DNA of 42,488 nucleotides from Bacillus sp. (in: firmicutes) (GTDB lineage Bacteria > Bacillota > Bacilli > Bacillales > Cytobacillaceae): assembly GCA_031177865.1 (NCBI GenBank), contig JAPSKD010000010.1:1-42488 (forward strand), written 5' to 3'. Made by a program: the position numbers and the translations under genes. The notes under the pieces are model-generated. The model did no database searches, was not told the origin of the DNA, and was given only the letters and a program-made list of their open reading frames with translations. This document shows, in pieces, positions 7,263-41,491 of this stretch. The number at the start of each line of letters is the position of its first letter. Within the stretch, counting starts at the first letter, position 1.

Positions 7263-8447
7263 TTAAACAGTGGTAAGCACTCTCTCTTTGTATAACCAAT
7301 CTAAATATTTGTAATCGTCTGCTGAACGATTCAGCATGATTGTATTACGAAGGAGTCTTGTAACCGAATCTTCTGCATGCTTGATTTCTCCCCAAGTCCT
7401 TGCCCCTCGCTGTACCTCTGCCGTTCTAGGAATACGTTCTTTTTGATATTCGTCCAACGCTTTCGCTGTATTTGAGCCGTTCGCACGTATTTTTTCCGTT
7501 AAACAAACTGCATCTTCAAGTGCTTGGCAAGCCCCTTGTGCAAGATATTGCAGCATCGCATGAGCACTATCTCCCAGAAGTGTAACGCGATTGGTTGACC
7601 ATTTTTCCAACGGTTCAATATCAAACAGCTTTGTGATTAAACCGCGATTTGCAAACTTCAGGGATTCTTTAATGGTCGAACAGCTATCGGCAAACATCTC
7701 ATGGAGTTCCTCCGCTGTTCCCCAATCATCGGAGTCCTTATTATATTTATAGCTTTTGAACACAGCTACCTGATTAATTACACTCTTATGACGTACCGGA
7801 TATTGTACAAGATGAATACCAGGTCCGATCCAAGTTAATTTCTCGTCCCAGTCGATATCAATCGTCATTTCTGTCATCGGGACGGTAAAGCGATATGCCA
7901 CATACTGAGAGATAATTGGTTCTGCTTGACTTACTAGTTTACGTGTCATCGAACGGATACCGTCAGCACCGATTACTGTTTCCGCCAGCAGTACCGCTCC
8001 GTTTTCACAACGTAATTCTACATAATCAGCGAATTCTTTAACGGATTCCAATTTATGATTGGTTAAGAATGAAACATTATCTAGAGATTGACAAGCCTTC
8101 AGTAAGACACTATGCAAATCAGAACGATGGATAACAATGTATGGATACCCGAAGCGCTCGCGGAATGATTCTCCAAATTGAACAGCTGACAGCTCTTTGC
8201 CGCTTAACGCGTCCATGAACACATGACGGCGAGGAAACACCGCCAACTTATTGACCTCTTCCAGGACTCCCAAAGCATCCAGCGCCCGTAAGCCATTTGG
8301 ACCGACCTGTAATCCTGCGCCCACCTCACCAAACTGTGGCGCCTGCTCAAGCAGTGTTACTTTTTTTCCTAATTTAGCTATACCGTAAGCAGCAGCTAAA
8401 CCGCCAATTCCCCCGCCTACAACGATAACTTCTTTAATCTCGCCCAT
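7263..8447 (-). CDS. FAD-dependent aromatic hydroxylase, probable 3-hydroxybenzoate 6-monooxygenase
   Basis: This 394-residue class A flavoprotein hydroxylase shows the three family fingerprints: GGGIGG at 11-16 (FAD ADP moiety), GADG at 160-163 (FAD and NAD(P)H) and GDSAH at 292-296 (FAD ribityl). Its length and its place directly before gentisate dioxygenase fit 3-hydroxybenzoate 6-hydroxylase, which makes gentisate (2,5-dihydroxybenzoate) with NADH and oxygen. A salicylate 1-hydroxylase would yield catechol and would not fit the neighbour. The RBS is AAAGGGGTG. The family is certain; the exact substrate is an inference from context. Confidence 0.85.
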   Translation of the reverse strand: MGEIKEVIVVGGGIGGLAAAYGIAKLGKKVTLLEQAPQFGEVGAGLQVGPNGLRALDALGVLEEVNKLAVFPRRHVFMDALSGKELSAVQFGESFRERFGYPYIVIHRSDLHSVLLKACQSLDNVSFLTNHKLESVKEFADYVELRCENGAVLLAETVIGADGIRSMTRKLVSQAEPIISQYVAYRFTVPMTEMTIDIDWDEKLTWIGPGIHLVQYPVRHKSVINQVAVFKSYKYNKDSDDWGTAEELHEMFADSCSTIKESLKFANRGLITKLFDIEPLEKWSTNRVTLLGDSAHAMLQYLAQGACQALEDAVCLTEKIRANGSNTAKALDEYQKERIPRTAEVQRGARTWGEIKHAEDSVTRLLRNTIMLNRSADDYKYLDWLYKERVLTTV

Positions 8448-8483
8448 ATAATCACCCCTTTAGTAAATTGGTTATTTATTCCA

Positions 8484-9623
8484 TTAATCTATTGCTATTA
8501 CATCTGGGTATTCAGTCTCAAAAACGGATAGGATCTCCTGATAACCGCCATTTTCTGTATAAGCTTCTTCTCTTTCAAATCCAAAAGGCTCCAAAATCGG
8601 CAGATCATTCGTAGAGAACAAAAATGCCTCTTCTGTTTCCGATGTATTCACGTGCTCATGCCATGTCCAGGCCGGCAGTGCGAAGAAGTCGCCCGCTTCC
8701 CAGTCAAAACGAACACCGTTCATCACCGTATACCCGCGTCCCTTGTGTACATGATATACCGAGCTGTGCATATGGCGATGCGCTTTTCCCTTATATTGAA
8801 TCGGCAGTTTCTGCATCCTGGCGCCAATCCTTCCATTTGCGTCTTTGCCGGTGGAAGGATTGATATATTCTACTGCGAACCCGTCGAATAGATCAGGAAC
8901 AAATTCACTTTGTCCATCCAGTGCTTGTTTCGTCAAATCCCATGTGTATCGTCCGAGCGGTGCAGGTGATGGCTTACGATCCGAAATCGGTCGTACCATC
9001 CCGCCTGCATAACGCTTTGTGCCGTAATCATCAGGAAACTCAACCGGCTGCTGCTCCTCTGGATATAGTTCGAAGAAGGAACTTGTCAATGCCGAAGTAA
9101 AAGGGATATCTAAACAATCCATCCACAACACCGTTTCGTTTCCTTCATTTACATGATCGTGCCAGCACCACTCCGGCGTAATGACGTAGTCCCCTGGTTC
9201 GAAATAATATTTCACCCCGTTCACAATTCCGGATGCGCCCTGACCTTCCATAATAAACCGCAGTGCTGAAGTCATATGCCTGTGAGATGGAGCAATTTCC
9301 CCTGGATTAAGAGCTTGAACGGCAGCATACAGTGTTTGCGTTGCCCCGCCCCATCCGTGTGGCTCCAAATTCTTCATACCAGGATTGATTAAATATACAG
9401 CTCGCCGATCAATGGATCCCGTACCTACCTGGAGCAGCTCCTTTGCTTTGTCCAGCGCTTTGAGAATCTGATTCTTTTTCCACAAGTAGGGAACTGCACG
9501 GGGCTTTGGCTGTGGTGCGCTGAATATGGATGCCCATAAGGGACCCATATTCTGATCCTTCAGCTCCTGGTAGAAATCCAGCAATTCTGGTGTCAATTGT
9601 TGATTTGATTTATGTTCCGACAT
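8484..9623 (-). CDS. Gentisate 1,2-dioxygenase
   Basis: This 379-residue bicupin opens gentisate between C1 and C2 to maleylpyruvate with Fe(II) and oxygen. The N-terminal cupin carries the metal ligands His114 and His116 (SHRH) and His155/His157 (WHDH). The C-terminal cupin repeats a partial pattern around residues 283-330 (HRHMHS, WTWHEHV). Length and the paired WHDH/WHEH motifs match bacterial gentisate dioxygenases closely. It is 36 bases upstream of the hydroxylase gene and is the best-defined pathway marker of the island. Confidence 0.93.
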   Translation of the reverse strand: MSEHKSNQQLTPELLDFYQELKDQNMGPLWASIFSAPQPKPRAVPYLWKKNQILKALDKAKELLQVGTGSIDRRAVYLINPGMKNLEPHGWGGATQTLYAAVQALNPGEIAPSHRHMTSALRFIMEGQGASGIVNGVKYYFEPGDYVITPEWCWHDHVNEGNETVLWMDCLDIPFTSALTSSFFELYPEEQQPVEFPDDYGTKRYAGGMVRPISDRKPSPAPLGRYTWDLTKQALDGQSEFVPDLFDGFAVEYINPSTGKDANGRIGARMQKLPIQYKGKAHRHMHSSVYHVHKGRGYTVMNGVRFDWEAGDFFALPAWTWHEHVNTSETEEAFLFSTNDLPILEPFGFEREEAYTENGGYQEILSVFETEYPDVIAID

Positions 9624-9728
9624 ATTACATCCCCACTTTCGTAATTAACGTACAGTAACAATAAAGTCATTTAGGCAGTATCAAACTCGTCTAATGAGTT
9701 TACTTAACCTCTTATCAAAATAAACTGA

Positions 9729-10562
9729 TCAAATGCCCGGTTTATAGTCAACCTCTACAGAAAATTCACCGATTCTTTCAATGTGAATTTTTACGGTATC
9801 GCCTTTTGAAATTGGAGCCACTCCTTCTGGTGTTCCAGTCGTGACAATATCCCCCGGCAGCAGCGTCATTACACTGGAAGCCGCCTCAAAAAATTTATAG
9901 CAATCGTAAATGAGATCACTTGTGTTGGCTGATTGTCGGATTTCATCGTTTACCCACAAGTTCATCTGCAGTTGATTCGGGTTTTCCACTTCGTCACCAG
10001 TCACAATCCATGGACCGATTGGAGTAAAGGTGTCGAAGGATTTACGCCATGGTCGATCTTCCTTACCACGGACCGTAATGTCCATTAAGGCAAGGTATCC
10101 GAAGATGTACTTAGACGCATCCTCCGCCTTTACATCCTTGGCCTCCTTACCCACTACGAAGGCAATTTCCGCTTCATGATCTACTCTCCGGTCTCTGAAC
10201 GGCAGCAGGACCGTTTGATCAGGTCCAATAATTGAAGAAGGCGATTTGAGGAAAAAGCCAAGACCGTCCACCGTTAAAGCGGTGTTCATCTCTTGTTTGT
10301 GCAGGATATAATTAATAGGAGCTGCTACGATTTTGCTCGGATTTGGCACAGGCGCTCGAAGCGACACATCCGATACTTGATAAACAGGACAAGACCTCAG
10401 GCCTTCTTCAATTTTAGGTTTCAAAGCCTCAAATTCTTTCATCAGCTTGACTAGGGAAGCTTGCGGATCCTCGTTGTTCCAATCTGTTAATTCAGTAATA
10501 TCGATCACGCTGCTGCCATCAACAACACCTAAGCGATTTTCATTGAACAATGCAATTTTCAT
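9729..10562 (-). CDS. Fumarylacetoacetate hydrolase family protein, probable maleyl-/fumarylpyruvate hydrolase
   Basis: The FAH-fold enzyme is 277 residues long from the ATG at 10562 (MKIALFNE), which has GGAAGGAG at the right distance; an upstream in-frame ATG at 10625 lacks one and lies inside the preceding gene. The metal-site segment VDHEAEIAFVVG and the C-terminal GDIVTTGTPEGV motif are typical. It is next to gentisate dioxygenase, so the expected reaction is C-C hydrolysis of maleylpyruvate or fumarylpyruvate to pyruvate plus maleate or fumarate. No maleylpyruvate isomerase gene is visible in the window. Confidence 0.88.
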   Translation of the reverse strand: MKIALFNENRLGVVDGSSVIDITELTDWNNEDPQASLVKLMKEFEALKPKIEEGLRSCPVYQVSDVSLRAPVPNPSKIVAAPINYILHKQEMNTALTVDGLGFFLKSPSSIIGPDQTVLLPFRDRRVDHEAEIAFVVGKEAKDVKAEDASKYIFGYLALMDITVRGKEDRPWRKSFDTFTPIGPWIVTGDEVENPNQLQMNLWVNDEIRQSANTSDLIYDCYKFFEAASSVMTLLPGDIVTTGTPEGVAPISKGDTVKIHIERIGEFSVEVDYKPGI

Positions 10563-10596
10563 TATGATACTCCTTCCATTTGATTCCTTAATTGAA

Positions 10597-12060
10597 TCAA
10601 ACCATCTGTTTTTGATTAAAATCATTCAATTGGTTGTGTATCTCGTTTATCCAATCACTAAAGCATGTGAATGTATCGATTCGCAAACCTTGATCATACA
10701 GCTCATGAGCGATGTTCTCTATACGGCTATGTTGAAGTGAAGACTGAGCATAGTGGCTCAGGCAGCTGATCCACTTCTCTCGATGCTCTGCTTCACTCAG
10801 TGGTTTTTCTTTGGAGCCTGGTGCGTGTTGCATCTTTTTTTCATACACTGGTCCATTCGTTGTTTTTATTCTTATTTCTACCGCTAATCTTCGATTAAGC
10901 CGCTTGTCTTCCTCACATTCCTGCAATTCCAACACCTTGACAACAGGAATTAGCTTCTGAATGTCTGCACGGAGCACTTGATTGTCTTCAAAGCTGCTCA
11001 GCCTCACATGTCCATCGGCTATGGCCGCGAGTACGGTATATTCCGCACTGAACTTTCCTTGTAATCCAGTTACAGGTCGAGAATGAACTAAAGGCAAGAG
11101 ACTTCTCGGCTGAGCTTGCAGCACAATTTCATCTATATCCTCTAAGCTCAACTGATGCTCATCTTTAAGCTCTAGTGCTCCTTGTATAAAGCGGTGTGTA
11201 CCAAAGCAGCAAGGGAACTTTTTGACGGATAATCCTTCTAGCATATCGAATGGCTCTCCGAAAGTGATAGAATCCATCCCCTTTTGCAGCTCCTCTTCGT
11301 CCGCCCCGCCGCTAAATGCCATGAAAAAACCGCGTTTTCCAAAGATATCCTTATTCCCTGTGAAGCCTTGATCAGCTAAGATGGCTGCCTGAATGCCGTG
11401 TGATGCTGCCAATCCAACATGCAGCGATTTGGTCATAGAGCCGAAATTCTTCTGCAGCCCTCCGGTCATCGATGCAGCAATGGCAATGGCATGGGAGCAT
11501 TGATCTTCAGTGAGACGAAGCAGATAGGAAGCAGCAGCAGCCGCTCCAATCGTGCCCAATGTATCGGTTGCATGCCAGCCGAGATTATAATGCCGTATTC
11601 CCATCACTTGCCCAATTCGGATCATGACCTCCGTTCCGATACTATAGGCTGTAATGACTTCCTTACCCGAGCTTTTCAGCTTTTCGGCAAGAGGCGTTAT
11701 CGCAGACAGAACCGGAGCGCTGGGATGGATGACGACACCAACAGAAGCATCGTCATAATCCAACACATGGGAAGCGGTTCCGTTAATGATGGCTGCTTTA
11801 TCACAATCCGCCTTCACTGGCTCCCCCCAAAGAGAGGAGACACCACCCAGCCCGCTTTCCTGGTAGACATATACCTTTTTAGCCTTTTCTACGGCAGGTT
11901 CATTCCACCCGGCTATTGCCACCCCAAGGGTATCAATGATTGCCTGCTTGGCTAATTCCACCATTTCCTCTGGAAGCTTTTCATAGGATATATCTGTAAT
12001 AAAGGCGGTGAGCCTCGACATCATGTTATTGATTTTTCCATCTTGGTTTACGCTTTTCAT
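10597..12060 (-). CDS. MmgE/PrpD family protein
   Basis: This 487-residue protein belongs to the MmgE/PrpD family, which includes 2-methylcitrate dehydratase (PrpD) and cis-aconitate decarboxylase. The family features DYDDASVGVVIHPSAPV and GWHATDTLGTIGAAAAA are present in the N-terminal helical domain. The start is uncertain: the ATG at 12060 overlaps the enoyl-CoA hydratase by 35 bases, while an ATGATG at 12024/12021 (MSRLTAFITD) fits the family's usual N-terminus better; neither has a strong RBS. In this context it may dehydrate or decarboxylate a tricarboxylic or branched acid, perhaps with the operon's aconitase. The substrate is unknown. Confidence 0.85.
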   Translation of the reverse strand: MKSVNQDGKINNMMSRLTAFITDISYEKLPEEMVELAKQAIIDTLGVAIAGWNEPAVEKAKKVYVYQESGLGGVSSLWGEPVKADCDKAAIINGTASHVLDYDDASVGVVIHPSAPVLSAITPLAEKLKSSGKEVITAYSIGTEVMIRIGQVMGIRHYNLGWHATDTLGTIGAAAAASYLLRLTEDQCSHAIAIAASMTGGLQKNFGSMTKSLHVGLAASHGIQAAILADQGFTGNKDIFGKRGFFMAFSGGADEEELQKGMDSITFGEPFDMLEGLSVKKFPCCFGTHRFIQGALELKDEHQLSLEDIDEIVLQAQPRSLLPLVHSRPVTGLQGKFSAEYTVLAAIADGHVRLSSFEDNQVLRADIQKLIPVVKVLELQECEEDKRLNRRLAVEIRIKTTNGPVYEKKMQHAPGSKEKPLSEAEHREKWISCLSHYAQSSLQHSRIENIAHELYDQGLRIDTFTCFSDWINEIHNQLNDFNQKQMV

Positions 12061-30554: not shown

Positions 30555-31532
30555 TTATTTCACTAATTCTTTTACTTGTGCTTCACGATCTACGTCGTCG
30601 CGACGACGATCACCCCAGTATGCAGAACCATTTTTCAAATATTCTTCATAAGTCCATTTCACTGGCTCCCAGTCTGGCTCAAAGATTAAGTAGCCGTTTG
30701 TAAAGATTTCAAGACGTAAGCCGCTTCCTGGGTCTTTTACATAAATGTACATTGCTTGCGAAATACCATGTTTACCAGGACCTACGAATTGTACATCAGC
30801 TTCGCATAAAATATCAGCAGCGCGTAGTAAGTCTTGTGCGTTATCTAACCAGTAAGCGATATGGTGCATTTCGTTTGGCTTTTTTGAACGTGATGTAGAC
30901 ATAATTGCTACATCATGTACTAAGTTTGTTACGGATAACCAGCTTGCTACTTGTACATCGTCTGGATTCACGAAATATTCGCGCAGCTTGAAGCCTAATG
31001 CTTCTTGTAAATATTTTACGATCTCAGCGTTGTCATGAGAAGTTTGTAAGTTTACATGATCGATACGGCGTGGAGATACACCTTTCGCCCAGGATTTATA
31101 AGTTTGGTTTTTAAGTACTGATTTGCGGGTTTCATCAGCAGGTGTTTTTTCCATATCGTAGTAAAGTTCGAAGCGGTGACCACTTGGTAATTCGAAGCGG
31201 ATTGCTTCACCTTGCGCTGCTTCTTCGCCAGCTTCTATCCAACGTACTTCTGTACCAGCATCTTCTAATAATTTTGCGAAAGTTGCTATATCCTCGCGGC
31301 GTTTTGTACGCCAGCCGATGTGATCGATGTAAGAAGTTTCACCAGCTGTAATGGATAATGTATGGTGCTCGAAGTCGCCCCAAGCTCGTAAGTAGTGTAC
31401 GCCATCTACAACCTCTGTTTCTTCTAAGCCGATTGTATCGCGGAAGAACCATAAAGATTTTTCAAGATCTGCTGACACTAAAGCTACGTGTCCTAATTTT
31501 GCAATTTCCGGTGCGTAAAGAAACTTTTCCAA
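30555..31532 (-). CDS. Type I extradiol ring-cleavage dioxygenase (catechol 2,3-dioxygenase family)
   Basis: This 325-residue vicinal-oxygen-chelate protein has two domains. The iron ligands of active extradiol enzymes are in the C-terminal domain: His159 (RIDHVNL), His224 (EMHHIAYW) and Glu275 (RLEIFT). It cleaves a catechol next to the hydroxyls to a ring-opened semialdehyde or ketone. The start is a TTG at 31532 after GAGGTGA. With the upstream monooxygenase and hydrolase it resembles the HsaC/BphC arrangement, in which the catechol carries a bulky side chain. Which catechol is used is not clear. Confidence 0.92.
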   Translation of the reverse strand: MEKFLYAPEIAKLGHVALVSADLEKSLWFFRDTIGLEETEVVDGVHYLRAWGDFEHHTLSITAGETSYIDHIGWRTKRREDIATFAKLLEDAGTEVRWIEAGEEAAQGEAIRFELPSGHRFELYYDMEKTPADETRKSVLKNQTYKSWAKGVSPRRIDHVNLQTSHDNAEIVKYLQEALGFKLREYFVNPDDVQVASWLSVTNLVHDVAIMSTSRSKKPNEMHHIAYWLDNAQDLLRAADILCEADVQFVGPGKHGISQAMYIYVKDPGSGLRLEIFTNGYLIFEPDWEPVKWTYEEYLKNGSAYWGDRRRDDVDREAQVKELVK

Positions 31533-31610: not shown

Positions 31611-32780
31611 TTACCCTTGAATGTTTGTATTAACGCCGAATAAATGTCTGCCGTAACCTAAAATGCCGTCTTCATATAAAGAAGTAATGTGGGTTGCAAT
31701 TGCCATTAAGTCACGAGTAAATAGCTCTACTGGATGACCTTTTAATAAGGCGTGTCCGCCTAAAGTCAGCAGTGATTTTACACCGATTTGTGCACACTTA
31801 TCAATAATCTTTGCACGGATTGCTTTATATTTTGCTCCTTCGTAAAGGCCTCCTTTATCTCTTTCCATCATTGCGATGTATTCATTTAATAAGCTTTTAG
31901 CAGAGAGCATTTCAAGCTTTAACTCCGAAAGTACGCGTTGGCTCGCAGGAGAATCTTTTTCATTAATACCAGAGAACCGTACTCGGCCAGCTGTATGCTT
32001 TTCGAATTCGTCAAGTACACGCTCGGCACCGCCAACAGCCATCGCTGCAAACCCTACATAGAAGCCGGGGTAGAATGGTGTGTTGTAGTATAAGTAGTCT
32101 TGATCGAAATCTTCATACGGCGGCTGACTCTTTTCGATAATTTTGTTAAAGCGTAAAATGGCATCAGGCTTCACGAAAACTTTATCGACGATTAATGTAT
32201 TACTGCCGGATCCACGAAGACCAAGCGAATCCCAGGTTTTCACAACTTCTAAGTCAGAAACTTTTAATAAAATACCTACTCGCTCAGGCTTGTCATTATC
32301 TTCGAATTTCATAAATGCGCCAACGCCAACCCAATCGCAATAGTTGATACCGCTTACAAAGTTGTACTTACCTGAAACAATATAGCCGTTTTCAACTGGT
32401 TCTACTTTGCCGATTGGTGCAAATACGTCAGCTACGAAGCCGCCTTGGTTAATGACTTCATCACGAATGTGCTTTGGATAGTAGCATACCCAAGAGTTGT
32501 GCACGGAGAAGAAGTATGTTAACCACGAAGCAGATAAGTTGTGGTAACCAACTGTACTTACCATATCAACGAACGTGCGCCAATCAAGTTGTGGATAGCC
32601 AAACTCCTTAGGTAAAATTAAACGATGAATTCCCTCCTCGCGGATCATATCCGCGAGTCTTGGAGAAATGGTCGAGTTTAGATCTGCTTCAATGGCTTCT
32701 AACTCTGCAGCTTCCCCGATGCGCTTTGCTTTTTGCATAATTTCTTCATAAGGAGCTTTATTTTTAAGTGCTGTTAACAT
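31611..32780 (-). CDS. Acyl-CoA-dehydrogenase-fold flavin-dependent monooxygenase (HsaA/HpaH-type)
   Basis: This 389-residue protein has the acyl-CoA dehydrogenase fold but the C-terminal signature GGHALLKGHP...RDLMAIATH of group D reduced-flavin monooxygenases (HsaA, p-hydroxyphenylacetate hydroxylase C2). These hydroxylate a phenol to a catechol with reduced flavin from a separate reductase. The acyl-CoA catalytic glutamate is absent, in line with this role. A reductase gene is found at 37596-38069, and the dioxygenase follows directly. A true acyl-CoA dehydrogenase is less likely. Confidence 0.82.
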   Translation of the reverse strand: MLTALKNKAPYEEIMQKAKRIGEAAELEAIEADLNSTISPRLADMIREEGIHRLILPKEFGYPQLDWRTFVDMVSTVGYHNLSASWLTYFFSVHNSWVCYYPKHIRDEVINQGGFVADVFAPIGKVEPVENGYIVSGKYNFVSGINYCDWVGVGAFMKFEDNDKPERVGILLKVSDLEVVKTWDSLGLRGSGSNTLIVDKVFVKPDAILRFNKIIEKSQPPYEDFDQDYLYYNTPFYPGFYVGFAAMAVGGAERVLDEFEKHTAGRVRFSGINEKDSPASQRVLSELKLEMLSAKSLLNEYIAMMERDKGGLYEGAKYKAIRAKIIDKCAQIGVKSLLTLGGHALLKGHPVELFTRDLMAIATHITSLYEDGILGYGRHLFGVNTNIQG

Positions 32781-32804: not shown

Positions 32805-33701
32805 TTATTGTGCTGTAACTGCTTGATCTTTTTCAACAGCTAAAAAATCGATAACAAGTTTGTTCACGATTTCTGGCTGGTCCGTTTGTGCTTGGTGACC
32901 GCAGTTTTCGATATATTCGAATTTAATGTTCGGTAATAATTTCTCAAGCTTATAACCTGTCTCTACTGGTGCGACATTATCTTGGTTACCCCAAATGAAT
33001 AAACCAGGAATTTTTAATTTTGGTAATGAATCCTTAATACAGTAACGATTCCAAAGCTTTGGTTCTTCATTCATTCTGGCTAAGTAACCATCAAACGCTT
33101 GATTTGATTCTTTTACACCTGGGCGGGTTGCTGCTTGATGACGAAGTTGAATTAGTTCTTCAGGAATGACTGTGCCTTCACTAGAATTACGATACATAAA
33201 TTTACGTAACGATTCTTCTGTATAGTCGTAACCAATCACTTCTAAGAATGAACGCAGCTTTCTTTCAGGTACTTCTTGCATTGCTTGATAAATCGTATTA
33301 CTGCCAATGTAAACAACCTTATTTACTTTTTCAGGGTGGTCAATTGCATATTTAGCAGCAACATAAGCACCTTGTGAGTTGCCAACAAGTGATACTTCAT
33401 CCAGGCATAATGCTTCAATAAAATCATGTACATGATCCACTAAGCTTTGATGACCATTTACTGGCCATGCGTGAGGGCGTGCATCTGTAAAGCCCATTGA
33501 TAGTTGGTCTACTGCATATGCACGGAAGCCAGCTTTTGCTAATGCAGGCAACATAAAACGCCAACCCGCTGCGCCGCAGGCACCAGGTCCTGCACCATGT
33601 AGTAAAATTACAGCTGGTCCCTCTGTTCCAGCCCAAGAATAATGTGTACGTACCCCTTTTGCTAATACGTAACTATTATGAAATCCATCAAAAATTGTCA
33701 T
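32805..33701 (-). CDS. Alpha/beta hydrolase, meta-cleavage product hydrolase-like
   Basis: This 298-residue protein has the alpha/beta-hydrolase triad: Ser109 (VGNSQGA), Asp241 (WGNQDNVAP) and His269 (NCGHQ), with the oxyanion motif HGAGPG at 35-40. The HGAGPG and C-terminal pattern match carbon-carbon hydrolases of meta pathways (BphD, HsaD, MhpC). It would split the ring-opened product to 2-hydroxypenta-2,4-dienoate plus an acid. It is the first gene of the minus-strand operon and directly faces the divergent sensor gene. Confidence 0.9.
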   Translation of the reverse strand: MTIFDGFHNSYVLAKGVRTHYSWAGTEGPAVILLHGAGPGACGAAGWRFMLPALAKAGFRAYAVDQLSMGFTDARPHAWPVNGHQSLVDHVHDFIEALCLDEVSLVGNSQGAYVAAKYAIDHPEKVNKVVYIGSNTIYQAMQEVPERKLRSFLEVIGYDYTEESLRKFMYRNSSEGTVIPEELIQLRHQAATRPGVKESNQAFDGYLARMNEEPKLWNRYCIKDSLPKLKIPGLFIWGNQDNVAPVETGYKLEKLLPNIKFEYIENCGHQAQTDQPEIVNKLVIDFLAVEKDQAVTAQ

Positions 33702-33878
33702 TGTTTTGCCCCCTTGTACTGATTGGCTGTTTTTTGTTGTTTTGAGTATAACTGTTAATAAATTTAAACATAATAGCGATTTTTATTGAATGAATAGTCA
33801 GAATCATTAAAATTTATTGAAAAGCATACTTAATTTTAGTAATATGGGGAATAGAAAATCATAGGGGATGTGATTTTA
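33702..33878. promoter_or_regulatory. Divergent control region of the meta-cleavage operon and its sensor-regulator
   Basis: This 177-base A+T-rich gap holds the starts of both the hydrolase operon (minus) and the regulator (plus). On the minus strand a TATACT (-10 like) is preceded by a poor -35, which fits activator dependence. Further upstream the segment AATGATTCTGACTATTCATT contains an AATGA/TCATT repeat. A related ATTCTGA word occurs at about 37438-37445 upstream of the flavin reductase. No -24/-12 sigma-54 promoter was found. Confidence 0.4.
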
Positions 33879-35684
33879 ATGAGTGAAATAGCATTTGATT
33901 CAAACGAAACAAAAAATATTTTAATGTCGGCAAATGCCTTCCACACATTAAAAAACAATTTATTTAACAACATTGGCTCTCATAAAACGAAAGGTTTTTT
34001 ATTCCGATTTGGTAAAGAGTTTGGGATGGAATCAGCAAAAAATAGGCTTCAGAATAAAAACTCGGTGAGTCCTGTCGGTAAAAGACATTCGCGCTTAGGT
34101 CATGTAAAAGATGTAATTTTCATGGGAGAAATTGTGCGCCATCCGGACGGCACGATTGAATGTAACAATACGTGGGGACAATGGGTAGAATCATTCGAAG
34201 CAGCATTACACCTTAAAAATTACGGTTTAGCAAATGAATGTGTTTGTCACATGTTATGCGGGTTTGCGAGTGGTGCATTGACATATGAGTTTGGCGAGTC
34301 AATTATTGCCATTGAGTACAAGTGCGTTGCAAAAGGTGATCCATGCTGCGAGTTTAAAGTGCGTTTGGAGCGCGATTGGCTCAAAGAGAAAGAGGATCTT
34401 ATAAACCTTTATCAAAACGACAACATTTTATCTGAGCTTGAAATGACATATGATGCACTTTTGCATCATAAGCAATTGCTCGAAAAAATTTCGATGTTTC
34501 ATAGTCAACTCACGCAAAAAGTAACAGATAAGCATTCGATGGATGAAATTGTACAGGCTGCGTATGAACTGTTGAACATCCCGATTTTGATTGAGGATAT
34601 TCACGGCAATCCGTTAAGTCAAATTGGTTTAACGGAAGAACAGCAGCTATTAATTAAAAAAGATAAGGCGAAATTATCGTATTTTGATGATAAGCACAAC
34701 GTTTCGTATTACAAAGGCGATGAATATTGGAAGTTGACCGCACCTGTTCTTATTAATAAAAAAAATTATGCCTCTTGTTCTTTTTTTTACTTTGACGGTG
34801 AACGTATGGATGAAAACGATCACTTATTTTTAGAGCGTATTTCTACGGTCGTGGCATTATGTATTTTATACGAGGAAGCGCAGTTTGAAGAACAACAGCG
34901 TATGCGCAGCTCACTGTTAGAGCGCTTAATTCATAATCGAAATATTAAAGACATCGAATCTTACTATAAGTTTTTACTGTTTATGTTTCGGCCGCCGTTT
35001 TCTACAGGTATTATTAGTGTAAAAAAGAAAAAGAAAAATAACGAAATTATTGACATTCATGATCAGCTGATACAGCTCTCAAAGTTAGCAAAAGAGTGGG
35101 ATTTACCTTGTATTTTTGCAGTACTCGGGGAAGAAATTGCTCTCCTTAACTCACTAAATAGCGATAAGCAAGGCTGGCAAAAGAAAATGACTAAGATTTT
35201 TCATAAGATGGAGAAACAAAACAGCAATTATAAATATTCAATCGGGCTTAGCGGAATGTTTAGCAACTTTAAAGATTTTGAACGTTCTCTTCAAGAAGCG
35301 CGTATCGCACAGCGCTTCCCAAATCAAAAGCTGCTAACAGATTACGAAGATTTAGGTATGCTTGGCGATATTGTAAGGAACATGAGTATCGAACAGCTGC
35401 ATGAAATGGCGAAAAAGACGTTAAAAGATTTATACAATTTCGACGATCCTCGTAAAAAAGAGTTGCTGCACACGCTTTACGTTTATTTATTAAATAGCCA
35501 GCGCTTAAAAGAAACGATGGATGAGTTGACGTTATCAATCGGCGGTATCCAATATCGTATAAAGCAAATTGAAGAGCAGCTGCAAATTTCACTAAAAAAC
35601 GCTTCAACAGCCGCGTATACTTTATTAGTGATTCAGGCGCTAATATTGTCGGATAGTTTATGCTTTGAGGAATTTGCACGATAA
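33879..35684 (+). CDS. V4R (XylR_N-type) phenol-sensor regulator with PucR-type helix-turn-helix
   Basis: This 601-residue protein starts at the ATG at 33879 (AGGGGA about 11 bases upstream; the in-frame GTG at 33870 is too close to it). Residues 1-170 are an XylR_N/V4R sensor. The zinc ligands known from MopR are kept with exact spacing (Cys123, Glu146, Cys149, Cys157), as is the phenol-contact pair His75 and Trp102. A central linker and a CdaR-like region follow, and the last 70 residues are a PucR-type HTH (LSIGGIQYRIKQIEEQL). No AAA+ sigma-54 domain is present. It probably activates the flanking meta genes on binding a phenolic. Confidence 0.88.
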   Translation: MSEIAFDSNETKNILMSANAFHTLKNNLFNNIGSHKTKGFLFRFGKEFGMESAKNRLQNKNSVSPVGKRHSRLGHVKDVIFMGEIVRHPDGTIECNNTWGQWVESFEAALHLKNYGLANECVCHMLCGFASGALTYEFGESIIAIEYKCVAKGDPCCEFKVRLERDWLKEKEDLINLYQNDNILSELEMTYDALLHHKQLLEKISMFHSQLTQKVTDKHSMDEIVQAAYELLNIPILIEDIHGNPLSQIGLTEEQQLLIKKDKAKLSYFDDKHNVSYYKGDEYWKLTAPVLINKKNYASCSFFYFDGERMDENDHLFLERISTVVALCILYEEAQFEEQQRMRSSLLERLIHNRNIKDIESYYKFLLFMFRPPFSTGIISVKKKKKNNEIIDIHDQLIQLSKLAKEWDLPCIFAVLGEEIALLNSLNSDKQGWQKKMTKIFHKMEKQNSNYKYSIGLSGMFSNFKDFERSLQEARIAQRFPNQKLLTDYEDLGMLGDIVRNMSIEQLHEMAKKTLKDLYNFDDPRKKELLHTLYVYLLNSQRLKETMDELTLSIGGIQYRIKQIEEQLQISLKNASTAAYTLLVIQALILSDSLCFEEFAR

Positions 35685-35770: not shown

Positions 35771-37072
35771 CTATTGTTCTACAGAAACATTTAGGCTCAT
35801 TTGCTTTTCTTCCGTAGTACGACGTGCATCTTCTTTTTCAGTTGCTGTAATTTTTAATTTACGTGTAGCTAATAACACTATTGCAGTTACAACATATAAA
35901 CTAACGATCACTAACACCCCTGAGTTGAAACCGGAGCGAACGTCATCACCTGTAAATGTAATTAAGTAACCAGTAATCCATGGACCGATTACTCCAGCCA
36001 TACTTGAAATAGATAATGAAATCCCTGTTACACTGCCCACTAATTTTTTCGGAATGATCAACGTTTTTATTGCAACATTTAACGGTAATAGGCTTGTGTT
36101 CATTACCAGGCCTCCGCCTAAGAAAATACATGCTAAAACTGGTGAAGATACAATTGTTGTCATTGCGTAAGAGGTCGCACCAACCAGTAATACTATAACT
36201 AATACACGGTCATAAGATTTGATAAGGCTTTTATTTTTCTTGAATAAGATGTCTGTAAATTTACCTGCACAAATTGCGAATACAGTACCTGCAATACCCA
36301 TTCCAGCAAATACTAAGCTCATAATATGTGGCTCAAGACCAACGATTTTTGTTAAGTAAGTTGGTGCCCATGTTAGAACCCATGTTGTTATCCACATTGA
36401 TACGAAACCTACAACTAAAATTGATAATACATACGGGTTGATTAAAACTTCTAAAATATACTTGAACGGTACTTCCTTGTTAGAAGCTAAAGATTTTACG
36501 TCTTCAACCAGTGGCTGCTTAGGCTCGTCTCTCATAAAGAAGAATAATAATGCCCATACAAAGCTTGCTGCCCCTAATATTGCGAAAGTATGTTGCCAAC
36601 CTAAGTTTGTAATCCCGATAACCAAAAGTGGTGCAGCTAAATACGTACCAACTGTTGTACCAGAAGTCATAATAGCTGAAGCGACACCGCGTTGTGAACT
36701 AGTAAACCATCGTGCAAGGTGTACTATGCACAAACCGAGCGTACCACCCTCGAAGAAACCTAAACTAACACGTAGTAAAATTAAGTTTGTTACCGTTTCT
36801 ACAAAATAAGCGCTTGCTAATGAAACAGTCCATCCAGTAGCAATTATCATTAATAAATATTTTGTGTTGAAGCGATACGTTAATGTACTTAAAATAATAC
36901 TTCCGACAGCGTATGCAGCGAAGAAGCTACTTCCTACTAAACCAAACTGATCGTAAGATAAATCTAGTTCAGACATGATTGGTTCTGCGGCTAATCCTAA
37001 AACTGATTTATCCGTATAGTTTAAAACAGATAGTAAGAATAGAAATCCTAATACAACCCAACGCATATGCAT
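35771..37072 (-). CDS. MFS transporter, anion:cation symporter-like
   Basis: This 433-residue protein has about 12 hydrophobic segments. The N-terminal motif NYTDKSVLGLAAEPIMSELDLS and the central amphipathic loop fit the ACS (anion:cation symporter) branch of MFS, which imports organic and aromatic acids. It is in the A+T-rich meta block, transcribed toward the sensor gene. It has GGGGGATTTT before ATGCATATG; the first or the second ATG may be used. The substrate is unknown but is likely a phenolic acid of this cluster. Confidence 0.85.
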   Translation of the reverse strand: MHMRWVVLGFLFLLSVLNYTDKSVLGLAAEPIMSELDLSYDQFGLVGSSFFAAYAVGSIILSTLTYRFNTKYLLMIIATGWTVSLASAYFVETVTNLILLRVSLGFFEGGTLGLCIVHLARWFTSSQRGVASAIMTSGTTVGTYLAAPLLVIGITNLGWQHTFAILGAASFVWALLFFFMRDEPKQPLVEDVKSLASNKEVPFKYILEVLINPYVLSILVVGFVSMWITTWVLTWAPTYLTKIVGLEPHIMSLVFAGMGIAGTVFAICAGKFTDILFKKNKSLIKSYDRVLVIVLLVGATSYAMTTIVSSPVLACIFLGGGLVMNTSLLPLNVAIKTLIIPKKLVGSVTGISLSISSMAGVIGPWITGYLITFTGDDVRSGFNSGVLVIVSLYVVTAIVLLATRKLKITATEKEDARRTTEEKQMSLNVSVEQ

Positions 37073-37595
37073 AAAATCCCCCTTGTATTACTGAACTTTC
37101 CTATCCACATCATTTCATAATTAAATTGTTAGATTTTTCCGAAAATTCTTGAGGTAATTGTTAGCGTTTTCAATATAATGTTAGAATAATATCACACCTC
37201 CATCTATTTTACTAGAAATACATTCATTTCGGCACTTTTTTTACTTTCTTTTTAAAAAAAATAGTGTCTAATGGAAAAATTCAATATACGAATCTTCTAT
37301 GAAAAGAATTCTATTTGAAAAAAAAGAGATTTACAAGGAAAAAAATGATACTTATTTGGGTTTGAATGAGAACAAAAAAGAAAAGATTAAATTCCCAATT
37401 CCAAAAATGTTAAAATTTTTCATTGACATATATTGATAATTCTGAACTTTTTTGAAATTTTTGCACAAAAAATTTCAATTCGGTCTTGCGTAAATTTTAT
37501 TGTTTTTTTCTCAATTTTCAATAAAAATAACAATGACAATTTTAAATGGACTCCTTTATGATTAAATTATTCGATTAAGGATGGAGGAATTGGGG
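37073..37595. promoter_or_regulatory. Divergent control region of MFS 2 and the flavin-reductase operon
   Basis: About 520 bases, strongly A+T rich, with no gene seen. For the plus strand, a -35 ATGACA (37533-37538), an 18-base spacer and a -10 TATGAT (37557-37562) lie 34 bases before the reductase start. Upstream is an 11-base inverted repeat at 37452-37478. The rest (37073-37440) shows poly-A/T tracts and no feature I can name. Confidence 0.6.
37452..37478. repeat. Perfect inverted repeat, candidate activator site
   Basis: Arms TTGAAATTTTT (37452-37462) and AAAAATTTCAA (37468-37478) pair over 11 bases around the five-base spacer GCACA. It lies about 55 bases upstream of the -35 element, as expected for an upstream activator site. 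No T-run follows, so it is not a terminator. Confidence 0.6.
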
Positions 37596-38069
37596 ATGGA
37601 TGATCGTTTATTTAGAGATGCAATGGGGAAATTTGCCACAGGTGTAACAGTTCTTTTAACTGAAAACGAGGGAGAAACACATGGAATGACAGCAAACGGT
37701 TTCATGTCAGTATCATTGGATCCGAAGCTTGTCTTAATTTCTATTGGACATAAAGCAAAATTTTTAGAAAAAGTCTCACAGTCTAAAAAATATACAGTAA
37801 ATATTTTAGCTGAAGATCAAGAGCATTATTCACGTCATTTCGCCGGGAAACCTGGTGAAGCAGTAGAATTTGAAACGTTAGCTGAACTACCAGTACTAAA
37901 AGGGGCTATCGCTCAAATCGCATGTGAAGTTGTATCAGAACATGTAGAAGGTGACCATACATTATTCATTGGCAGAGTGGTAGATTTACGTCTTGAGGAT
38001 AAAAATCCGTTATTATTCTTTAGTGGTAAATATCGTCAATTGACAGAGGTAGAAACAGTTAAGTCTTAA
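37596..38069 (+). CDS. Flavin reductase (HpaC/PheA2/HsaB-type)
   Basis: This 157-residue split-barrel flavin reductase begins at the ATG at 37596, which has GGAGG eight bases upstream; an earlier ATG (37581) overlaps that RBS. The family segments KFATGVTVLL and GMTANGFMSVSLDPKLVLISI are present. It uses NAD(P)H to reduce free FMN or FAD for the partner monooxygenase at 31611-32780. It is the first gene of an operon with the hydratase (14 bases later) and the FAD synthetase homologue. Confidence 0.9.
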   Translation: MDDRLFRDAMGKFATGVTVLLTENEGETHGMTANGFMSVSLDPKLVLISIGHKAKFLEKVSQSKKYTVNILAEDQEHYSRHFAGKPGEAVEFETLAELPVLKGAIAQIACEVVSEHVEGDHTLFIGRVVDLRLEDKNPLLFFSGKYRQLTEVETVKS

Positions 38070-38083
38070 AAGGAGAATTCTGT

Positions 38084-38878
38084 ATGAATATTCAATTAAT
38101 GGCTAATGCATTGCTTGAAGCAGAACGTACGAAACAGCCAATTACACCATTAACTGAAACCTATGAAAATATTACAGTTGCTGATGCCTATGCAGTGCAA
38201 TTAGCGCAAATTCGTCAAAAGATTGACTCCGGGGCGACAGTAAAAGGGCTAAAAATTGGTTTAACAAGTAAAGCGATGCAAGAAATGTTGAATGTATATA
38301 CACCAGACTACGGTTTTATTTTAGATACGATGGTATATGATGAGGCAGATGGTTTAGCTGCTGAGTCCTTTATTCAACCAAAGGTAGAGTTTGAAATTGC
38401 ATTTGTTTTCAATAAAGAGTTAAAAGGACCAAAAGTGACACAGCAAGATGTAATCGATGCCACTGCTTATGTTGTACCAGCAGTAGAAGTAATCGATAGC
38501 CGTATCGTAAATTGGAAAATAAAATTCGAGGATACAGTAGCAGACAATGGTTCTTCAGCAGGTGCGATTTTAGGTGAAAAGCATACACTGCTCAAAGATA
38601 TTGAGGACATTACAAATATCCCAATGATTGTGAAAAAAAATGGTAAATTTTTAGACGAAGCAACGAGCTCGGCCGTGTTAGGTAACCCACTCAATGCGGT
38701 TGTTTGGCTAGCAAATGAAGTGAGTGCATACGGCATTTCTATCGAACCAGGCATGTTTGTTTTATCAGGAGCACTATCAAAAGCTGTTCCCTTTGAAACA
38801 GGCGATGAATTTGAAGTTGACTTCGGTATACTCGGGAGAGTAAACGCTAACATTTTAAAGGAAGTCGTGAAAAAATAA
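38084..38878 (+). CDS. 2-oxopent-4-enoate (2-hydroxypenta-2,4-dienoate) hydratase family protein
   Basis: This 264-residue protein has the MhpD/TesE/HsaE length and motifs: VKGLKIGLTSKAMQ near residues 48-61 and QPKVEFEIAFVF near 99-110, with the divalent-metal glutamates in the latter. It hydrates 2-hydroxypenta-2,4-dienoate to 4-hydroxy-2-oxovalerate after the hydrolase step. It follows the reductase within one transcript. The next enzymes (aldolase MhpE/HsaF and acylating dehydrogenase MhpF/HsaG) are not in the window. Confidence 0.9.
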   Translation: MNIQLMANALLEAERTKQPITPLTETYENITVADAYAVQLAQIRQKIDSGATVKGLKIGLTSKAMQEMLNVYTPDYGFILDTMVYDEADGLAAESFIQPKVEFEIAFVFNKELKGPKVTQQDVIDATAYVVPAVEVIDSRIVNWKIKFEDTVADNGSSAGAILGEKHTLLKDIEDITNIPMIVKKNGKFLDEATSSAVLGNPLNAVVWLANEVSAYGISIEPGMFVLSGALSKAVPFETGDEFEVDFGILGRVNANILKEVVKK

Positions 38879-38924
38879 AAAAGCAATGAGGTAGCACAAA
38901 TAAAAGAAAAAGGAGAGAACCGCA

Positions 38925-39713
38925 ATGAGGGTAATCTATGTGAATGCTAATAACTTACAAGAGATTAAACAATCAGCTCCCAATGCAGCGATGGCACTTG
39001 GTTATTTTGATGGTGTGCATTTAGGGCATCAAAAAGTAATTCAAACAGCTAAAGAAAAAGCAAAAACACAAAATTTATCATTAGCGGTCCTCTCTTTTTT
39101 CCCGCATCCAAAAAGTGTGTTATTTTCGGACATAGAAGTCTCATATCTAGAGCCACTGGAACAAAAAGTTGAAAAGTTAGAAAGGCTTGAAGTTGACATT
39201 TTTTATATCGTAGAGTTTACAAAGGAATTAGCTAAAGTTGAAGCGAACGATTTTTTAGATGATTATATTATCGGTTTGAATGCTGAGGAAATTATTTGCG
39301 GTTTCGACTATACATATGGGGCAAAAGCAAGTGGTACTGTTAAAACACTGGAAGTTTATGCGGCTGCACAACAAGTAGGCCTAACTGTTGTCGAAGAGCT
39401 AAAGTGGAATAATCAAAAAATAAGTTCGACTTTGATTAGAAGACACTTACGAGAACGAAAGCTTAGTGAATTACCGAGTCTATTGGGAGGCTTTTATAAA
39501 ACTAAGTATTGTCAAAAAAACGGTTTACTGCCGAATTATTCGTTACCGAATGTAGGTAGTTATAAAGTATTGATTGAAGATCGGCATTCTTTTATTGAAT
39601 GTATTGCGACTGTAAAGTGTAATAGATATATTCAGATTCATAATGAAATGTCCACGCTGCCGAATTTATTAACGATAATATGGGTTGACCAATTAGAAAC
39701 AATACCAAGCTGA
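38925..39713 (+). CDS. FAD synthetase (RibF/RibC-like) with an apparently degenerate riboflavin-kinase domain
   Basis: This 262-residue protein is shorter than bifunctional RibF (about 310). The N-terminal adenylyltransferase domain is well kept: ALGYFDGVHLGHQ (residues 24-36) with the HxGH motif, and ISSTLIRRHL near 165-174. The C-terminal part lacks the riboflavin-kinase GFPTANL loop and keeps only a vague LPNVGSYKVL, so kinase activity looks lost. It should turn FMN into FAD. Its place in the flavin-monooxygenase cluster suggests it supplies FAD to the hydroxylase or reductase. Such a gene is normally a single housekeeping copy next to truB. Confidence 0.85.
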   Translation: MRVIYVNANNLQEIKQSAPNAAMALGYFDGVHLGHQKVIQTAKEKAKTQNLSLAVLSFFPHPKSVLFSDIEVSYLEPLEQKVEKLERLEVDIFYIVEFTKELAKVEANDFLDDYIIGLNAEEIICGFDYTYGAKASGTVKTLEVYAAAQQVGLTVVEELKWNNQKISSTLIRRHLRERKLSELPSLLGGFYKTKYCQKNGLLPNYSLPNVGSYKVLIEDRHSFIECIATVKCNRYIQIHNEMSTLPNLLTIIWVDQLETIPS

Positions 39714-39932: not shown

Positions 39933-40547
39933 TTATTTAGTAATAAAATTCCTTCGATACCAAGTTGCAGCTGCTTCTACTTCTTGACTGGTTAATTGAT
40001 GACCTTTATTTTCCCAATGGAGTTCTACCTTCGCATTTGCCTTTTTTAATAAAGACTGTAGCTCTGTAGATTCCATAGGAGAACAAATGGGGTCATTTGT
40101 CCCCGCTGCAATAAATACTGATTTCCCTGTTAAGTCAGGAAGGTCAATTCCTTTTCTCGGCACCATCGGATGATGTAGAATCGCACCCTTTAATGCATGT
40201 TGATAGTGAAATAATAAACTAGCAGCAATATTTGCTCCATTTGAGTAGCCGATTGCAAGAATATTATCGCGGTCAAAATTATACTTTTCAGCGGCTTCAT
40301 CTAGAAACTCGTTTAGTTCTTTTGTTCGAAAAATAAGATCTTCCTCATCAAAGACACCTTCTGCTAATCTGCGGAAAAACCGAGGCATGCCATTTTCTAG
40401 TACATTCCCGCGAACACTTAATACATTTGCCTCATCATCAATCATTCCTGCAAGTGGGAGCAGATCTAATTCATTGCCTCCGGTACCATGAAGCAATAAC
40501 AACGTTGGTTTTGTTGGATTTTGTCCCTTATTGAATATATGTTTCAT
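39933..40547 (-). CDS. mhqD: Alpha/beta hydrolase, carboxylesterase/phospholipase type
   Basis: This 204-residue alpha/beta hydrolase has HGTGGNELDLLPL near residues 20-32, the nucleophile Ser in GYSNGAN (near residue 101), an Asp near 150 (AGTNDPICS) and His in NKGHQ near 185. It matches MhqD of B. subtilis, which belongs to the MhqR regulon for quinone and catechol detoxification. Its ATG overlaps the mhqO stop by one base (TAATG), so the two are translationally coupled. The physiological substrate is unknown, perhaps a ring-cleavage product. Confidence 0.88.
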   Translation of the reverse strand: MKHIFNKGQNPTKPTLLLLHGTGGNELDLLPLAGMIDDEANVLSVRGNVLENGMPRFFRRLAEGVFDEEDLIFRTKELNEFLDEAAEKYNFDRDNILAIGYSNGANIAASLLFHYQHALKGAILHHPMVPRKGIDLPDLTGKSVFIAAGTNDPICSPMESTELQSLLKKANAKVELHWENKGHQLTSQEVEAAATWYRRNFITK

Positions 40548-41491
40548 TATTTATCTCCCTCCAAAACTCGAACCTCTACCGGTGGTAAGATTTCTTCTAA
40601 TTCTTGTCTTTTTGACTCTAGCCAAGACGGTAACATAAGTTTTTTCCCAAGGTTAGCGACTGGTTCATCCACTGAAAAACCTGGTGGGTCGGTAGCTATT
40701 TCGAAGAGGATGCCCCCTTCTTCATGAAAATAAACTGCTTTAAAATAGTTACGATCACGAATTTCTGTTGGATAGTGTCCTTTGTCTTGAAGAAGTAATC
40801 TCCATCTGAGTAACTCCTCTTCAGCCTTAGCTCTCCAAGCAATATGGTGAACAGTACCTGCACCCATTAAACCGCGGACAGATGGATTAAGCTGAATATC
40901 CACAGTGTTTCCCAGATGTCCTTCTGCCTTAAACCTTAGATAATCACCTTCTTGACCAATGCAATCTAATCCCATCACATTCTCGAGTACATCTGTTGTT
41001 TTATGCGGCTGTGCAGAGTAAAGAATCGCACCGCTAAACCCTTTTATCGCATTTTCTGCTTGAACCTCGCCAAAGCTCCAATTATTAATTGGTCCTTCAT
41101 CATTTTCGACTAGTTCAAGCAGCAAACCGTCTGGATCGCTAAAGCGGATATACTTTTCTCCAAATCGAATGGAAGAGGTAGAATCAATATTGAATTTTTT
41201 CAATCGTTTTTCCCAAAACGAAATGGAGCCCTTTGGGATGCTGTAACTAGTTACACCTACCTGTCCGGTACCAATTCGTCCTTTTAACTGTTTTTCCCAA
41301 GGGAAGAAGGTAATGACCGTTCCTGGGTCGCCTGTTTCATTTCCAAAATAAAGATGATACACTTCAGGACGATCAAAGTTGATTGTTTTTTTAATAAGCC
41401 TTAATCCAAGCACACCTGCATAAAAATCGATATTCCTTTGGGCATCATTGACCATCGCCGTGATATGATGAATCCCTGCTGTCTTCTGCAT
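40547..41491 (-). CDS. mhqO: Ring-cleaving dioxygenase MhqO (VOC family)
   Basis: This 314-residue protein has four vicinal-oxygen-chelate modules. Metal ligands are visible as His8/His9 (IHHITAM), His near 218 (GTVHHIAWRA) and Glu near 259 (GGILFEIATDPPGF). MhqO proteins cleave substituted hydroquinones or catechols, and the B. subtilis gene is repressed by MhqR. It is transcribed just before mhqD. A second copy lies upstream at the window edge. A 97-base gap with a palindrome separates it from the reductase gene. Confidence 0.9.
   Translation of the reverse strand: MQKTAGIHHITAMVNDAQRNIDFYAGVLGLRLIKKTINFDRPEVYHLYFGNETGDPGTVITFFPWEKQLKGRIGTGQVGVTSYSIPKGSISFWEKRLKKFNIDSTSSIRFGEKYIRFSDPDGLLLELVENDEGPINNWSFGEVQAENAIKGFSGAILYSAQPHKTTDVLENVMGLDCIGQEGDYLRFKAEGHLGNTVDIQLNPSVRGLMGAGTVHHIAWRAKAEEELLRWRLLLQDKGHYPTEIRDRNYFKAVYFHEEGGILFEIATDPPGFSVDEPVANLGKKLMLPSWLESKRQELEEILPPVEVRVLEGDK

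Follow-up and report, generated by a model that had tools for sequence, protein, structure and literature searches.

A regulator encoded in the window (the whole 42,488-nucleotide stretch of DNA analysed here, from a soil bacterium related to Bacillus with an assembly of 5.43 Mb) joins a sensor of the DmpR/MopR phenol type to a PucR-type output and lacks the sigma-54 module, an architecture that a preliminary description had read from the DNA and that domain search, structure model and family comparison now support. The fusion of this sensor to another kind of output is real and well conserved; from it and its surroundings we infer the function, namely that the regulator probably turns on nearby degradation genes for a phenol-like compound. 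In the scheme that we favour, the protein would activate transcription as a one-component system, with a substituted phenol bound in a zinc-braced XylR_N/V4R pocket. The signal would pass along a linker helix and a module of GAF-like and GGDEF_2 domains to switch on the PucR-type HTH. The HTH would bind TTCAATAAAAA-N5-ATGAT, an element that extends into the -35 region at two promoters whose -10 boxes are sigma-A-like. Ligand would thus increase transcription of a hydrolase-monooxygenase-dioxygenase operon as well as of a flavin reductase-hydratase-FAD synthetase operon, and activation would need neither sigma-54 nor ATP hydrolysis. We give a probability of roughly 0.72 to the scheme as a whole, that is, to one-component, phenol-responsive activation of both operons without sigma-54. 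The strongest new points are a corrected candidate for the ligand-contacting histidine and the GAF-like domain, together with the promoter element, the linkage to an FAD synthetase and how many such proteins exist.

Domain architecture and sensor pocket of the regulator

The regulator gene (33879..35684, + strand, 601 aa) occupies a frame that could start at GTG 33870 or ATG 33879 and runs to a stop ending at 35684. An upstream AGGGG fits ATG 33879 better, the start chosen previously. Four domains score above their Pfam gathering scores, including the three named beforehand: XylR_N (residues 9-59), V4R (102-162), GGDEF_2 (396-479) and HTH_30 (529-583). The XylR_N score is weak, at 28.7 bits compared with about 100 in some other proteins. 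The two sensor domains make up residues 9-162 (33903..34364, + strand), and their predicted model takes the PoxR/MopR/DmpR fold, in line with what the preliminary description had expected of a comparison with MopR. MopR is also the top PDB match by sequence, far beyond chance (HMMER, residues 4-187, E 1.9e-15). In the same predicted structure (model m46733f3110ca), a linker helix of residues 182-216 (34422..34526, + strand) may occupy the place of the DmpR B-linker. A GAF-like domain, overlooked in the preliminary description, spans about residues 198-338 (34470..34892, + strand) between the sensor and GGDEF_2. It was found by structure model and fold search, the latter run with the whole model, so that single domains can escape and unlisted families may occur. 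Pfam gives no credible GAF match in the regulator (top match PAD_N, E 0.16), nor in the Parageobacillus plasmid protein L113 discussed below (SpoVT_C, E 0.014). The C-terminal part, GGDEF_2 followed by HTH_30 (35064..35627, + strand), is the PucR/CdaR arrangement. Pfam finds no AAA+ family in any of the 42 members of family alignment A2, the regulator included, which bears out the reported absence of that module.

The residues that define the DmpR/XylR/MopR sensor subgroup, a Cys/Glu/Cys/Cys zinc site and a His/Trp hydroxyl dyad, are all present. As the preliminary description had stated, Cys123, Glu146, Cys149 and Cys157 align with MopR Cys155, Glu178, Cys181 and Cys189 at identical spacing (23, 3, 8), and Trp102 (codon 34182-34184) aligns with MopR Trp134. 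Its choice of His75 as the phenol contact fails: in a multiple alignment with MopR, PoxR, DmpR and relatives His75 falls on MopR Met111, and MopR His106, within a GPxxH motif, corresponds to His70 (codon 34086-34088). The HMMER pairwise alignment puts Gly74, and so neither histidine, on MopR His106 and alone does not settle the matter; we make the correction to His70 because of the multiple alignment and the common GPxxH motif. In DmpR the phenol hydroxyl sits between His100 and Trp128, and in XylR a tyrosine replaces that histidine (PMC7264223, excerpt), while in MopR His106 and Trp134 anchor the hydroxyl and further pocket residues are named (PMC10715001, excerpt).

His70 and Trp102 are invariant in 98 of 98 aligned sensors, MopR, PoxR and DmpR among them; 29 of the 38 genome-search loci L069-L106 entered this alignment. 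A second alignment of 64 proteins holds the window regulator, its three own-genome paralogues and 60 of 61 relatives' loci (L022, split in two frames, was omitted). Rows of both alignments were selected by the zinc pattern, and therefore conservation of the zinc site in them is partly by construction. By eye, the same residues occur in L022 and in eight of the nine L069-L106 loci outside the 98-row alignment; the ninth, L078, is a short fragment and shows nothing.

The residues lining the pocket differ from those of MopR, a point absent from the preliminary description. MopR aromatics are replaced by small residues (Phe132 by Gly100, Tyr165 by Ala133, Tyr176 by Ala144), and Leu134 is another differing position. 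Summed over nine pocket positions, side-chain volume in the window's clade is the smallest of the 98 rows (1123.5 versus 1395 in MopR); this sum is crude, with MopR positions 99 and 103 excluded for unsure alignment, the former being one on which two alignments disagree. The corresponding sum for the L113 protein, from a phenol operon, is 1213. We considered, and dropped, the idea that the enlarged pocket proves the ligand to be large, because L113 likewise has alanine at MopR positions 132, 176 and 191. In modelled sensors of p-cresol and p-ethylphenol, the distal pocket faces are enlarged (PMC10715001, excerpt).

The His/Trp dyad fits a phenolic hydroxyl, so that the earlier proposal of phenols as ligands stands in part; a substituted phenol seems likelier than phenol itself, since the pocket aromatics are small here and the neighbouring cassette has a hydrolase branch. 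In meta-cleavage, 3-substituted catechols are processed through the hydrolase branch, which would point to an ortho- or meta-substituted phenol. It is also conceivable, though we consider it unlikely, that the sensor has kept its fold while its ligand is no phenol at all, but for example a catechol or a compound formed in the pathway by ring cleavage. The strongly un-MopR-like pocket (Gly100, Ala133, Ala144, Leu134), its lowest volume sum in the alignment, and the crystallisation of MopR with catechol as well (5kbi) would suit such a ligand, but the residues that hold the hydroxyl are invariant, and the cassette's first enzyme is similar, if below the family cut-off, to phenol-type monooxygenases. 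We thus retain a substituted phenol as the preferred ligand.

The catabolic cassette

Three genes run divergently from the regulator, all on the - strand: a meta-cleavage product hydrolase of the HsaD/BphD kind (32805..33701, below NCBIfam cut-offs), the oxygenase part of a flavin-dependent monooxygenase, HsaA-like with an acyl-CoA dehydrogenase fold (31611..32780, below cut-off), and an extradiol dioxygenase resembling catechol 2,3-dioxygenase (30555..31532, 302.6 bits versus a cut-off of 320.2). On the other side of the regulator lies an MFS transporter gene identified by family search (35771..37072, - strand), and beyond it, on the + strand, come the flavin reductase of the monooxygenase (37596..38069), a 2-keto-4-pentenoate hydratase (38084..38878, below NCBIfam cut-offs) and a RibF-like FAD synthetase with only the FAD_syn domain (38925..39713, by domain search). 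For the flavin reductase, ATG 37596, which stands behind GGAGG, is the more likely start than 37581.

Across 61 loci with relatives of the regulator, a monooxygenase relative is present in 56, a dioxygenase of either type in 57 and a hydrolase in 56, with all three together in 54; flavin reductase and FAD synthetase relatives each occur in 50. Two of the 61 loci (L024, L045) have no relative of the monooxygenase, dioxygenase, hydrolase, flavin reductase or FAD synthetase. The queries in this search were the window's own proteins and the LigB-type dioxygenase of L006, at E 1e-8, and weaker relatives are therefore missed.

The genome has six FAD_syn matches, three of them inside such cassettes. 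An FAD synthetase in the cassette of a two-component monooxygenase suggests that cofactor supply is induced together with the pathway. The genome also encodes three further XylR_N-PucR regulators, L005 (contig C315), L006 (C480) and L007 (C18). The L005 and L006 regulators adjoin monooxygenase/dioxygenase/FAD synthetase cassettes of their own, in which the FAD_syn-only synthetases lie at 4987-5850 of L005 and 4668-5480 of L006 and the L006 dioxygenase is LigB-type by eye; beside the L007 regulator only a hydrolase relative, at the contig end, was found.

A 108-kb plasmid of Peribacillus asahii (L114, NZ_CP085716.1), typed as non-mobilizable, carries a cassette of this kind, and its regulator is 91.5% identical to the one described here; the regulator of Neobacillus drentensis (L008) is 92% identical. 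In the window the hydratase is directly followed by the FAD synthetase (38084-38925); in the plasmid copy, genes for acetaldehyde dehydrogenase and aldolase lie between them. Elsewhere in the window, genes resembling 3-hydroxybenzoate 6-hydroxylase and gentisate dioxygenase (7263-10625, below NCBIfam cut-offs) stand within a longer run of catabolic-looking genes and perhaps form a second aromatic pathway. A pair of hydrolase and ring-cleaving dioxygenase-like genes at 39933-41491 presumably resembles MhqD/MhqO of quinone resistance.

Promoters and a shared element

When the promoter regions are aligned and read towards the genes, both operons share TTCAATAAAAA-N5-ATGAT-N19 followed by TATACT (hydrolase operon) or TATGAT (reductase operon), so that the element keeps a constant distance to a sigma-A-like -10 box. 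In the window, the candidate activator element of the hydrolase/monooxygenase/dioxygenase operon reads TTCAATAAAAA-N5-ATTAT-N19-TATACT (33745..33790, - strand), and the second copy, at the flavin reductase operon, reads TTCAATAAAAA-N5-ATGAC-N19-TATGAT (37517..37562, + strand). Each scores 18 of 19, whereas 300 first-order shuffles per promoter region reached at most 15 and 16; in the direction of the MFS gene the element does no better than shuffles. The orthologous loci L008-L023 score at least 17 at both promoters in 13 of 16 cases. The others are L015 (17 and 15), L022 (19 and 15, the latter one base out of register) and L020, with 18 at the first promoter only and a contig that has no flavin reductase relative. 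The Peribacillus asahii plasmid copy scores 19 and 17. Among 48 other loci, a score of 16 is reached only in L026 (18) and L024 (16), in both directly upstream of the regulator on the opposite strand. Both belong to a five-member sister clade, the remaining members of which (L007, L025, L027) stay below 16, and in L026 the gene divergent from the regulator is a hydrolase relative. A degenerate pattern covering both window sites has two exact matches in the 5.43 Mb assembly, both at these promoters, and one further match with two mismatches, while a reversed control pattern matches nowhere. These scans are not independent evidence, since the window was part of the alignments and its two sites served to fit the genome pattern; for the latter reason, the genome scan shows only the absence of further close copies.

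PucR/CdaR-type and DmpR-type regulators are mostly activators. A regulator that instead represses the cassette until released by a phenolic ligand is therefore improbable, the more so as the poor -35 hexamers of both operon promoters would resemble those of activator-dependent promoters; even so, such hexamers could fit a repressor too, and at both promoters the element extends into the -35 region, so that a protein attached there could obstruct the polymerase. We continue to favour activation. We further infer that the XylR_N-PucR regulator, rather than another protein, binds the element. That the element should be the site of another regulator and the XylR_N-PucR protein act elsewhere would accord with the indirect link between protein and site, with the A+T-richness of the element and with its presence without a cassette in L024, but is doubtful on two grounds: within 5.43 Mb the fitted pattern matches exactly at the two promoters only, an argument against a global site, and in the scanned loci the element does not occur outside the regulator's clade and the sister clade. 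In L024 (Paenibacillus prosopidis, 8332-8823) the element lies with a sister-clade regulator, the divergent gene is, by eye, a short acyl-CoA dehydrogenase-like frame, and the locus is possibly a decayed cassette.

The sequence data indirectly support the proposal that the regulator, bound at the element near sigma-A-like -10 boxes, acts independently of sigma-54, which leaves that part of the preliminary description favoured but unproven. A GG-N10-GC core is absent from both strands of all 16 divergent regions (177 bases in the window) and of the last 300 bases before the reductase in all 14 promoter regions compared (the window and 13 loci; L012, L014 and L020 missing). A consensus scan of the window for sigma-54 sites gave 27 matches versus 21.8 expected, as by chance, and none in 33702-33878.

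The divergent regions, taken from the window and 15 of the 16 loci L008-L023 (L014, unaligned, omitted), also hold a probable promoter of the regulator itself, TTGAAA-N17-TAATAT (33817..33845, + strand). A search of that region found four promoter-like sites versus 1.8 expected, and a TTG(A/T)A(A/T) / TA..(A/T)T pair recurs at -60 to -64 in 14 of 16 regions. The direct repeat TTATTGAA (31-32 bases) occurs in 14 of 16 when TTATGGAA is counted as a match. We set it aside as a tandem operator because its distal copy overlaps TTGAAA, the likely -35 box; autorepression of the regulator at this repeat is possible.

Relatives in Bacillota and known regulators

All 61 loci found in a scan of public genomes are from Bacillota, as judged by record title. 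Alignment A2 (42 rows) comprises the window and 41 of these, picked by hand; the 20 omitted are near the kept ones by eye. With five other proteins and the three own-genome paralogues, 50 Bacillota XylR_N proteins were scanned with Pfam: 50 of 50 have XylR_N, V4R, GGDEF_2 and HTH_30, and none, the window's included, has an AAA+ family (sigma-54 interaction domain). Neither a Walker-A nor a GAFTGA pattern occurs among 37 loci (L078 absent), most of these sequences being incomplete at the ends; together the two patterns flag five of five sigma-54 proteins (four by one, one by the other). Counts of genomes with XylR_N, the own assembly included each time, are 19 of 40 among relatives, 33 of 299 in the order and 7 of 398 in the phylum. 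The arrangement is widespread in Bacillota, yet patchy. The preliminary description placed it "in a Firmicute", correctly for the host but understating its spread, since many Bacillota have it and PheR of Geobacillus was reported in 2008 (PMC2590616). The own assembly, with an estimated contamination of 5.99%, holds four XylR_N proteins, but as many as eight occur in other genomes of the genus.

In a tree of 82 of 103 sensors (21 near-copies removed by name), one branch (100/99) separates the eight sigma-54-fused ones from the rest. The tree agrees with a single exchange of output but does not show it, because all eight are from Pseudomonadota, all other sensors are from Bacillota, and the tree has no fixed root. 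With the sigma-54 label inseparable from phylum, we do not claim such an exchange as a proven event.

DmpR, MopR and PoxR are sigma-54 phenol activators with an AAA+ module and -24/-12 promoters, and the DmpR group requires both sigma-54 and ATP hydrolysis. The window regulator has their sensor fold, zinc site and His/Trp dyad in common, but by sequence neither their AAA+ module nor their promoters are found here. With PucR/CdaR-type regulators such as Rv2242 and AdeR it shares the GGDEF_2 and HTH_30 C-terminal part; unlike them, it begins with an XylR_N/V4R phenol-type sensor, followed by the GAF-like domain. Also among the closest known proteins is PheR of the Geobacillus stearothermophilus phe operon, which has a sub-domain architecture unlike that of DmpR and XylR and, like the window regulator, is encoded among phenol meta-cleavage genes in Bacillota (PMC2590616, excerpt). 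The pheR gene lies inside its operon and is co-transcribed, whereas the window regulator is divergent; the excerpt proposes no operator for PheR, and the word PucR is absent from the main text. PheR is listed with 642 residues, as is the protein of L113, a Parageobacillus plasmid with the phe gene order, which combines XylR_N, V4R, GGDEF_2 and HTH_30. With L113 representing PheR, the window regulator has all four domains of this type; it is 25.9% identical to the L113 protein.

The architecture has already appeared piecemeal in publications and in database labels. Such proteins carry the label "XylR N-terminal domain-containing protein", and in a 2021 description of Parageobacillus thermoglucosidasius phenol loci a gene is labelled pucR, on the chromosome together with ribF, flavin reductase and hpaB; there pucR is an annotation label, with the sensor undiscussed in the excerpt (PMC8696081). 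V4R can be fused to regulatory domains, PucR not being among those named in the excerpt (PMC2253512). The 2-isopropylphenol pathway is no close parallel, because it runs via hydroquinone (PMC12442392, excerpt). A literature search by narrow and broad queries, largely outside subscription journals, gave among the papers listed none that joins these pieces into a sigma-54-independent phenol sensor.

We tentatively propose a Bacillota regulator class in which a DmpR-type sensor would control sigma-A promoters through a PucR-type HTH, with a GAF-like second input and a substrate-induced FAD synthetase feeding a two-component monooxygenase. If this is true, the same hydroxyl-binding dyad, here with a simple HTH output, would illustrate how a single sensor drives two unrelated activation mechanisms. 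DmpR is widely used to sense aromatic compounds (PMC7264223, excerpt), and a natural version with HTH output would suit sigma-A-based sensors in Gram-positive hosts. How Bacillota regulate the degradation of aromatic compounds was called mostly unknown in 2008 (PMC2590616, excerpt), and a named promoter element would make this directly testable. In a sister group (L107-L109), the regulators adjoin HpaB-type monooxygenase genes (L107 by Pfam, L108 and L109 by eye), and L107 also has a flavin reductase relative, an FAD synthetase and an intradiol dioxygenase.
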